From a bacterium (GTDB lineage: Bacteria > Hinthialibacterota > Hinthialibacteria > OLB16): a stretch of DNA of 64,000 bases. The notes under the pieces are model-generated. The model saw only the letters and a program-made list of their open reading frames with translations, was not told where the DNA came from and made no database searches. Shown here piece after piece: positions 1-2,576 of the stretch (positions are counted from its first letter, which is position 1; every line of letters begins with the position of its first letter). Location of the stretch: positions 1 through 64,000 of the forward strand of contig JAJVIK010000001.1 in the NCBI GenBank assembly GCA_022072055.1, read 5' to 3'. The position numbers and the translations under genes are program-made.

Positions 1-47
1 ATCGCGGCCTTCTCCTGGGAAGTGTAGCGCTTCCGACTCCTTGCCAT
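1..47 (-). CDS. Transposase OrfA-like N-terminus (partial, runs off the window)
   Basis: The minus strand reads ATG at 47 followed by MARSRKRYTSQEKAA, then leaves the window. A strong ribosome binding site (GGAGGA, plus-strand 55-60) lies 7 bases upstream of the ATG. A short basic N-terminus followed by YTxxxKAA resembles the start of IS3/IS911-type OrfA proteins, whose first helix-turn-helix begins in this way. Only 15 codons are visible, so another DNA-binding protein cannot be excluded, but its position just inside the interruption of a housekeeping gene supports a transposase. Confidence 0.5.
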   Translation of the reverse strand, partial: MARSRKRYTSQEKAA

Positions 48-60
48 AAGGGTTTCCTCC

Positions 61-93
61 GTTCGGATAAGATTCTATGTTGCTTATCCGAAC
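61..93. repeat. Perfect 11-bp inverted repeat in the IS leader
   Basis: GTTCGGATAAG (61-71) and CTTATCCGAAC (83-93) are exact reverse complements around an 11-base spacer. The dyad sits directly upstream of the ribosome binding site of the transposase-like gene, so it would form a hairpin in its leader RNA or act as a protein-binding dyad. Subterminal hairpins that limit translation from outside promoters are known in several insertion sequences. Its role here is inferred. Confidence 0.6.
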
Positions 94-127
94 CACGGAA
101 CTGTCGGATTCCAGGTGAACCGGGACA

Positions 128-641
128 CAAGGATGAGGTCACCGAAGCGGCGAGCGCCCGGCTTTTCGACCTGGCGGACACTCCCTCCAAGATGATCAAG
201 CTGCCGGAGGCAGCCATCGCCAAGGCCATTTACCCCGCCGGGTTCTATCGCACCAAAGCGGCCACCATCCTCCTGGTCAGCCGGGACATCCTGGGCCGGT
301 TCCAAGGAAAGGTTCCCGACGAAATCGACAACCTGCTCACCCTCAAAGGGGTGGGAAGAAAGACCGCGAACCTGGTAGTCACCCTGGGTTTTGGAAAGCC
401 GGGAATCTGTGTGGACACCCATGTTCATCGCATCGTGAACAGATGGGGACTTCTGTCTGCCCCCGATCCAGGAGCGACCGAAGCATCCCTTCGGAAAGTA
501 CTCCCAAGGCGATACTGGATCCCCATCAACGACCTCCTGGTGACCTACGGCAGGACGGTCTGCAAGCCCATCTCCCCCCACTGCACTCAATGCGAGATCC
601 GGGAGTTCTGCGATCAAGCCGGAGTCAGTCGTTTTCGGTAG
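128..641 (+). pseudogene. nth: Endonuclease III, 5'-truncated copy
   Basis: From 129 the frame reads KDEVTEAASARLFDLAD and continues uninterrupted to the stop at 641. It contains the helix-hairpin-helix segment LKGVGRKTANLV, the catalytic-region VDTHVHR with its Asp, and the [4Fe-4S] motif C-x6-C-x2-C-x5-C at the C-terminus. This is the DNA glycosylase/AP-lyase of base excision repair, but about the first 40 residues are missing, replaced by the IS end at 127. An internal ATG at 192 could start a shorter product but would lack helices needed for the fold, so I call it disrupted. Its last 28 bases overlap the 3' end of the opposing HTH gene. Confidence 0.8.
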
Positions 642-1135
642 GCTGACTTCTTCCCGCAGGATTTCGGGTCAACCTTGGGAATCTCCGGTTCCCCATCGGG
701 GAAAAGGGCCTGGTGGTCGAAAAGGAACCGTTCGACCGTCTTTCTGTGCCATTTCCGTGGTTCGTAGAGACCGTCCTCCCACCTCCGAATGGACATTCCG
801 TCCATCCCGAGTCGTTGCCCCAGTACGGTCGCGGGAATCCCCAGGGTTAGACGGCAGAACCAGAGTCGCTCGCCCAAGGACTCGCCTCGGGGGAGGGGGT
901 TGTATCCCAGGAACCGGAGGATCCCTGGGATGCGTGGTTCGATCGGAACGCATCGGCCCTGTTCCCAGGATCCGACCGTCGAAACATTGACTCCCAGAAT
1001 CCTTGAGACTTCTCTTTGGGTCAGCCCCAAGTCCACACGACAGGCTCGGATATGGTCCCCCAGGGTTCTCAGTTCAGAGGGAATCCGCCGATTCCCTGGT
1101 TTCCGTGCGCTCAAGGTCACTCGGCAAAAAGGCAA
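614..1135 (-). CDS. Tandem helix-turn-helix (XRE-like) DNA-binding protein
   Basis: About 173 residues with two similar Xre/Cro-type helix-turn-helix units. The first runs around LGDHIRACRVDLGLTQREV...VSTVGSWEQG and the second around LGERLWFCRLTLGIPATVL...MSIRRWEDG. Each ends in the characteristic W-E-x-G, and they are joined by RFLGYNPLP, a linker seen in small bacterial proteins of this kind. Likely a sequence-specific DNA-binding protein; the target is unknown. The start is uncertain: TTG at 1135 is the first possible codon, no ribosome binding site is visible, and the frame begins exactly where the second nth fragment starts, so the 5' end may have been cut at the junction. The tail is Lys/Arg rich. 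Confidence 0.75.
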   Translation of the reverse strand: MPFCRVTLSARKPGNRRIPSELRTLGDHIRACRVDLGLTQREVSRILGVNVSTVGSWEQGRCVPIEPRIPGILRFLGYNPLPRGESLGERLWFCRLTLGIPATVLGQRLGMDGMSIRRWEDGLYEPRKWHRKTVERFLFDHQALFPDGEPEIPKVDPKSCGKKSAYRKRLTPA

Positions 1136-1341
1136 TACGAAGATGGGGCTTGGTCGCCGCCAAGACCCCGAACCAGACTGAGGCCGCGCTTCGGGAGGTC
1201 CTCCCCAGAAGGTACTGGATTCCGATCAATGACCTGCTCGTGACCTACGGTCGAACGCTCTGTCGCCCCACTTCCCCGCTCTGCTCGGAATGCCGGATCG
1301 CGGACATTTGCGCGCGGGTGGGGGTATCGCGCTCGCGTTGA
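1135..1341 (+). pseudogene. nth: Endonuclease III, second 3'-terminal fragment
   Basis: The frame ending at 1341 reads RRWGLVAAKTPNQTEAALRE and then the complete C-terminal part of endonuclease III, including its own C-x6-C-x2-C-x5-C iron-sulfur motif. Over the last 54 residues it matches the first copy at 38 positions by my count, including an unbroken stretch from VLPRRYW to VTYGRT. The two are related but diverged, so this is not a recent exact duplication. No start codon belongs to it, and homology stops upstream of about 1135 at the HTH gene, so it is a non-functional remnant. Confidence 0.8.
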
Positions 1342-1358: not shown

Positions 1359-2576
1359 CTATGGGTCCTTGATTGAAACCGATTCTCCCCGGACGGCGAA
1401 CCAAACAGTCCCCAGCGCGCCGAACGCGCTCGCGACCACAAGGTTGATCTCAGGCGCGAAACTCCACAGGAGCGCGCCGCCGAAGGCCGCCACCGACACC
1501 ACCACGTCGCGGATCAGGTAATACAAGCCGAACATTCCGGCTTTGCAGTCCTCCGGCGCGAGGTCCATGATCAGCGCCTTGCGGGTCGGCTCCCCGAACT
1601 CCTTCAGCCCACGAAGAACAAACGCTCCCACGAGCAGCGGGAAGGAATCGCAGAACAAGAGAGTCACGGGGAAGAGGGTGAAGAAAACGAAGGTCATCAG
1701 CACGAAGGGTTTCTTCTCGCCACGGTCGGAGAAGTGCGCCACGGGGATGTAGATCAGCACGGCGGTGGCCATCTCGATGGCGGTGAGCACTCCGAATTGG
1801 GTGGCGGAGACCGGGTTCTCGATCCGCTCCAGGCACCACACCACCACGAAGGCATAGGGGATCTGCTCGCAGAAACGGACCAGGATGTCCGATACAAGCA
1901 GGTTGCGAAGGCGCCTGTCCATCCGGGCGAAAAGCCGCAAGGGATTCCCCTCGGCGGAGTTCCCGCTGAGTTCGTTGGGTCGGCGATCCCGGATGAGGCG
2001 CTGCTGCGCGACGATGGCCACCAGCGCGAGGAGAATCGCGACGGCGAAGGCGAGGCGGACGCCGGTCTCCGGTCCCCAGGCATCGATGAAGACCCCGCCG
2101 AGGATCGGTCCAAGCGCCATCGGGAACCGTCGCACAAGCGAGTGCATCGAAACCCCCATGGCGCGCTTGCTCTTGGGAAGGGCCTCGGCGACCAGCCCCA
2201 TGGTCGCGGGGAGCGAGATCGCGGTCCAGGAAAGGAACAGGCAAGCCCCCAGGAGCACCGCCCACCAAGCCGGGATCAGAACCACGATCAGGAAGCCGAG
2301 AATCGCCAGGCCATTGAACAGAAGCAGGGCGCGCTTGGTTCCAAGATGGTCCGCCAAGTACCCGCCGGGGAAGGAGTAGAGCGCCGAAAGCAGGTTATCG
2401 AGGCCGTTCAAGGCCCCCACCGACCAGATGCCCCCCCCGAGGGCCAGGAGATAGATCGGGAGGAACCGCTCCGCCATCCGCTCCCCCATCCCCACCAGGA
2501 CCACCATGACGAGCAGCCCGAGGATTCCTCGCTCCAGGGCCAGGAATTCAGCCAATCTTCGCGCTGGGGAGGTCAT
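1359..2576 (-). CDS. Major facilitator superfamily transporter
   Basis: 405 residues, the usual size for a 12-helix MFS carrier, with hydrophobic segments throughout. The loop after helix 2 carries a motif A variant, GGYLADHLGTKR (residues 71-82), and the equivalent loop of the second half reads HFSDRGEKK, so both six-helix halves are present. Substrate cannot be read from sequence; drug or metabolite efflux is typical of this class. Encoded alone, convergent with the nth remnant and divergent from the small secreted protein at 2834. The 257 bases between them hold no further gene I can support. Confidence 0.85.
   Translation of the reverse strand: MTSPARRLAEFLALERGILGLLVMVVLVGMGERMAERFLPIYLLALGGGIWSVGALNGLDNLLSALYSFPGGYLADHLGTKRALLLFNGLAILGFLIVVLIPAWWAVLLGACLFLSWTAISLPATMGLVAEALPKSKRAMGVSMHSLVRRFPMALGPILGGVFIDAWGPETGVRLAFAVAILLALVAIVAQQRLIRDRRPNELSGNSAEGNPLRLFARMDRRLRNLLVSDILVRFCEQIPYAFVVVWCLERIENPVSATQFGVLTAIEMATAVLIYIPVAHFSDRGEKKPFVLMTFVFFTLFPVTLLFCDSFPLLVGAFVLRGLKEFGEPTRKALIMDLAPEDCKAGMFGLYYLIRDVVVSVAAFGGALLWSFAPEINLVVASAFGALGTVWFAVRGESVSIKDP

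Follow-up and report, generated by a model that had tools for sequence, protein, structure and literature searches.

The first 1141 bp of the DNA studied here very probably make up the right end of a large integrative island that is inserted in the native nth (endonuclease III) gene of its host, with the island integrase located on a second contig, C6. The window that was analysed comprises 64 000 nucleotides at the start of contig C9 (C9:1-64000) in a 32-contig draft genome of 5.86 Mb. Its first features are as follows.

1-127, minus strand: right end of an insertion sequence (IS), IS3-like by inspection, with terminal inverted repeat TGTCCCGGTTCACCTGGAATCCGACA and transposase start MARSRKRYTSQEKAA
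129-641, plus strand: nth copy 1, an island-borne, diverged endonuclease III gene, 5'-truncated at about codon 50
614-1135, minus strand: tandem-HTH (XRE/HTH_31) gene, a 173-codon ORF beginning at the attP arm and directed into the island
1122-1141, plus strand: left arm of attP (CGGCAAAAAGGCAATACGAA); the same arm, GGCAAAAAGGCAACGC, is present at comM attR sites
1142-1146, plus strand: att core GATGG, representing attR, with the likely crossover dinucleotide TG at 1144-1145
1142-1341, plus strand: nth copy 2, the displaced native nth 3' half, 66 codons and a stop
1359-2576, minus strand: MFS transporter gene of the host, outside the island

According to the original prediction, two diverged 3' ends of nth, both in the same orientation, flank a tandem-HTH gene on the opposite strand; this description was confirmed. 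The frame of copy 1 is open from 129 to 641 on the plus strand and encodes the HhH motif GVGRKTAN, the sequence VDTHVHR, a C-x6-C-x2-C-x5-C cluster and a stop; copy 2 consists of nth sequence from 1142 to its stop at 1341 and has a Cys cluster of its own. The two copies share 38 of their last 54 residues, the nth matches lie far above chance (TIGR01083, 2e-46 and 2e-8) and the HTH ORF matches Pfam HTH_31 (4e-13) and HTH_3 (2e-9). They had also been called homologous rather than recent copies, which holds: the 3' halves differ at 34 % of residues, and recent duplication of nth was rejected on this basis.

The boundary of the island was located by comparison with contig C6, where the native nth 5' half (C6:295888-296347) has an intact start and is broken at N-R-W by a serine recombinase gene that ends at the break. 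The cut falls at the same codon in this 5' half and in copy 2 of the window, and joining the C6 sequence up to the core with window positions 1142-1341 yields a seamless in-frame nth of 219 codons. The integration site therein corresponds to codons N-R-W-G, with the core GATGG. When the two non-nth arms are joined in turn, they give an inverted repeat, CGGCAAAxAGGCAAxA..TxTTGCCTxTTTGCCG, centred on the core; a segment score with its centre fixed at the core was equalled by only 1 in 100 000 joins drawn at random from local sequence, and a looser palindrome score by about 1 %. The seamless gene, together with arms that form an attP-like inverted repeat, identifies position 1142 of the window as attR and the C6 junction as attL. 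The junctions show the features of integration by a large serine recombinase: a short core, attB/attP half sites at both ends and an attP that is an inverted repeat. Furthermore, the break point is identical in the single 5'-only nth and the single 3'-only nth of the genome, and no nth-2 5' end besides that on C6 was found in the assembly, even at E=10. C6 and C9 thus appear to carry the two ends of one island. The sharpness of the break at the core, together with the att arms, led us to reject simple decay of two neighbouring nth genes. The original prediction had proposed that such an origin would be visible in relatives as two ordinary neighbouring nth genes, which is not what they contain: two genomes of the same family (G001 and G002) each have one intact nth-2.

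We propose that the serine integrase recombined attP with the N-R-W-G site inside native nth. The outcome would be nth 5' half, attL and integrase gene on C6, and HTH gene, attR and nth 3' half in the window. The original prediction had likewise placed an element inside nth, and the displaced 3' end, now copy 2, is the part of that proposal that stands. Its further suggestion was of a mini element with a cargo of about 500 bp that supplied a replacement 3' end, in the manner of icd prophages, which are islands that regenerate their target gene. In this reading, the element would span 442-1141 (approximately 700 bp) and would have supplied a new nth 3' end and pushed the old one aside. In its favour, a single gene is flanked by two 3' ends of like orientation, and the second of these ends begins at a sharp point. 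We consider this highly improbable. A core-like GATGG is present in copy 1 at 442-446, but copy 1 crosses this point with its frame unbroken and with no att arm, and it is the host 5' half on C6 that ends in attL, with the complementary arm and the integrase. Copy 1 is thus no hybrid host gene restored in the icd manner. The other end of the element therefore lies on C6 and the island exceeds 41 kb, and homologous HTH genes elsewhere are found at the ends of islands of 30-44 kb.

The start of the window falls within a repeated element, which raises the question of assembly. Contigs C8, C18 and C2 carry identical IS copies of 123-126 bp at their ends, the homology stops at 127, and this multi-copy IS interrupts the assembly at four contig ends. 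Contig C9 starts inside the IS, and copy 1 is therefore taken to have lost its 5' part through truncation by the IS. It could be argued that wrong joins at this IS, collapsed in a draft of 32 contigs, brought the nth pieces together artificially. The probability of such an artefact is negligible in our view, since 1 kb separates the IS from the attR junction at 1142, whose architecture agrees with that of 26 independent comM attR loci in other genomes.

The integrase on C6 (C6:296339-297835) is a large serine recombinase of 498 aa with PF00239 (7e-33) and PF07508 (5e-16) domains. Proceeding from attL, C6 encodes this integrase, a 1061-aa TrwB/HerA-like protein, a type I restriction-modification system (HsdM, HsdS and HsdR) and a HerA-like ATPase, followed by an AAA/NACHT-like NTPase, a second serine recombinase and, by inspection, a pair of small RuvC-like nuclease proteins and an ArdC-like protein. 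The contig ends 40 kb from attL, and the assembled sequence covers only part of the island. The integrase, the 1061-aa TrwB-like protein, the HerA-like ATPase, a 469-aa protein and the RuvC-like genes are shared by C6 and the comM islands of genomes G098 and G122. In these two islands about 11 kb separates the RuvC-like pair from attR, and it is therefore probable that C6 ends near the missing right end. Among the proteins of C6 that were scanned, none was recognised as the product of a phage structural gene; comparison of the integrase with plasmids gave no match, and comparison with viral contigs and phages gave weak matches only. A second integrase gene of the same clade is present in the genome (G000:C3:48679-50256, L247), with 65 % identity and a TrwB-like neighbour, and has lost the usual att arm; this locus is probably a remnant island. 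The same RHS-like repeat (GTCGAGTACGAGTACTGCCTGTCCTGCGATGGGGCGC) occurs beside both integrase loci, near 295700 on C6 and near 50350 on C3.

Relatives of the integrase were found at 80 loci from many phyla in a scan of genome contigs. By identity (51-65 %) and shared arms, the integrase belongs to a clade that inserts in comM. At no fewer than 44 of 82 integrase loci, comM is broken after AAMNP, many with the integrase-side arm GTTGCC, and comM attR sequences carry the arm seen in the window (GGCAAAAAGGCAA). At three loci (L075, L080 and L154), attP is intact and lies beside the integrase gene, with a spacer of 18 bp as in the nth island. One comM island (G129:C1:59268-103206, L240) is reversed, with the HTH gene at the 5' half and the integrase gene at the 3' half. 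At G111:C17 (L222, L227 and L251) and G121:C309 (L230), the comM 3' end occurs twice in succession, each time with an HTH gene of its own, at spacings of 23 and 7.7 kb, respectively; these loci have the appearance of stacked islands.

Such loci give some weight to a reading in which two islands or a tandem array are present, the attL of C6 and the attR of C9 are not partners, and copy 1 is left over from an earlier event at the same locus. The identity of copy 1 to native nth also shifts at the core, from 81 % of bases before it to 61 % after it, and C6 and C9 are separate contigs whose junction is unassembled. However, the extra comM copies begin at the core, but copy 1 reaches well 5' of it, and the genome contains a single 5' half of nth-2 and a single bare 3' half, with complementary arms. 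We therefore regard this reading as improbable, and prefer a single island with its ends on C6 and C9.

The position of the HTH gene provides a further link to the comM islands. In 34 genomes, the positions of HTH homologues relative to comM 3' fragments were examined, and an opposite-strand HTH gene was found upstream of the fragment within 60 bp in 24 of 29 cases and at 61 bp in two more. In the window, the gene at 614-1135 is likewise directly inside attR, on the strand opposite to the target. Because an HTH gene abuts attR at these 26 of 29 comM 3' fragments, the gene in the window is recognised as the attR-end module of an island type that usually occupies comM. The original prediction had advised asking whether HTH homologues lie next to nth or other gene 3' ends; they lie next to comM 3' ends, and none of the 82 integrase loci besides C6 is an nth insertion. 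At six loci (L080, L099, L107, L116, L124 and G070), the HTH gene lies directly downstream of the integrase gene and in the same direction. Several of these adjacent loci (the last being G070:C105) are in CPR or other candidate-phylum bins, and they are possibly circular, tandem or otherwise inserted forms. In the circular form, the integrase gene would read through attP into the HTH gene; as neighbours across attP, the two would be sent to opposite ends by integration. The lone HTH gene in the window is best explained by this separation. Given this arrangement, the HTH gene probably regulates integration and excision or acts as a directionality factor for them.

Positions 1-1141 consist entirely of island DNA, and copy 1 therefore lies within the island, as an extra nth that would have been inherited separately and carried next to the HTH gene. 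Its 5' half groups with native nth in trees of that half, and the divergence of copy 1 is greatest at third-codon positions, from which it follows that copy 1 was under protein-level selection before the IS inserted. The uneven identity between copy 1 and native nth suggests gene conversion. Identity is about 94 % over the first 90 bases (window 129-220 against C6:296035-296126) and 60-85 % elsewhere. No special mutation that must block re-integration was seen in copy 1. Most likely, copy 1 would have served as a spare for the broken nth and would later have been knocked out by the IS; a spare, carried by the island, of the gene that the island breaks is a plausible but unproven role. A search for a full-length nth elsewhere in the genome, as the original prediction had advised, located a canonical gene at C14:103847-104422, so the loss of native nth may be cheap.

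A spare target gene is not unique to the nth island, though it is rare, because full-length comM genes are also present inside two comM islands, G099:C210:13099-14673 (L243) and G122:C23:554797-556335 (L244), of roughly 27. The internal comM of G099 is directly upstream of the integrase gene and 89 % identical to the native 5' half, and that of G122 is in mid-island and 76 % identical. The G122 spare is closer to native comM after the att core than before it, so that its halves diverge unequally, as do those of copy 1. Loss of the att core was rejected as a general feature of spares: near the core, differences are seen in the G099 spare and in copy 1 but not in the G122 spare.

That copy 1 is instead a chance passenger, unrelated to the use of nth as target, we consider somewhat unlikely. 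Islands of this type hold much unrelated cargo, such as the type I restriction-modification system and the NTPase, and the pattern recurs in only the two comM islands. Nevertheless, it would be a notable coincidence for a second nth of one subfamily to lie 0.5 kb from an attR in nth, a single nth of this subfamily is present in relatives, and the two comM islands hold comM at two different internal positions. With copy 1 read as a spare, one could tentatively envisage a cross-phylum family of serine-integrase islands in which some lineages carry a diverged full copy of the target to offset the damage, with recombination between spare and native gene at or near the core; we hold this wider proposal to be possible rather than probable.

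The choice of nth as target is unusual for this clade. Among 386 related genomes, three further integrase genes were present, none of which was seen in nth in the parts of the flanks that were read, and our literature search found no account of nth as an island target. The genome's own comM (C10:155864-157360) is intact and empty, with AATCCGTGTCC at the usual site, so this island is not one inserted in comM. The comM site reads N-P-C-P-C-G, and nth attB has only AA-C--TG in common with the comM attB consensus. Either the integrase has shifted its specificity or it has used a secondary site; a secondary integration site is on record for sr1WO (PMC9203015).

In summary, an oddly split gene is explained as one end of a widespread island family, and provides a concrete case, with reconstructed att sites, of a comM-clade integrase using a different gene. 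The integrase-attP-HTH module that is split by integration makes the HTH gene a clear candidate for a regulator or directionality factor. If a spare is indeed carried, integration into a conserved coding gene would be tolerable by a means unlike the known strategy of repair at the junction.

Among known systems, comM-like (Mg-chelatase-like comM/yifB) genes are a common target of large serine recombinases (Durrant et al., PMC10083194), and the prophage WO variant sr1WO of Wolbachia has a serine recombinase in a comM-like gene and terminal HTH_XRE genes (PMC9203015). The nth island resembles the comM/yifB islands in its integrase clade, attP arms, 18-bp spacer, core genes and the placement of integrase and HTH genes at opposite ends, and differs from them in its target, with its host's own comM intact, and in carrying a second copy of the target gene. 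The nth island differs from sr1WO in that distant sequences (28 % identity) are the only relatives of the integrase above E 1e-40 in phage records, and in the lack of recognised phage structural genes among the scanned C6 proteins. As in tRNA and tmRNA islands (Islander, PMC4383910), a displaced fragment of the target gene marks the far end; unlike target-regenerating islands, the nth island shows no regeneration at the junction and has a separate copy of the gene inside it. The nth island is thus a variant of the known comM/sr1WO kind, with a different target and a second target copy.
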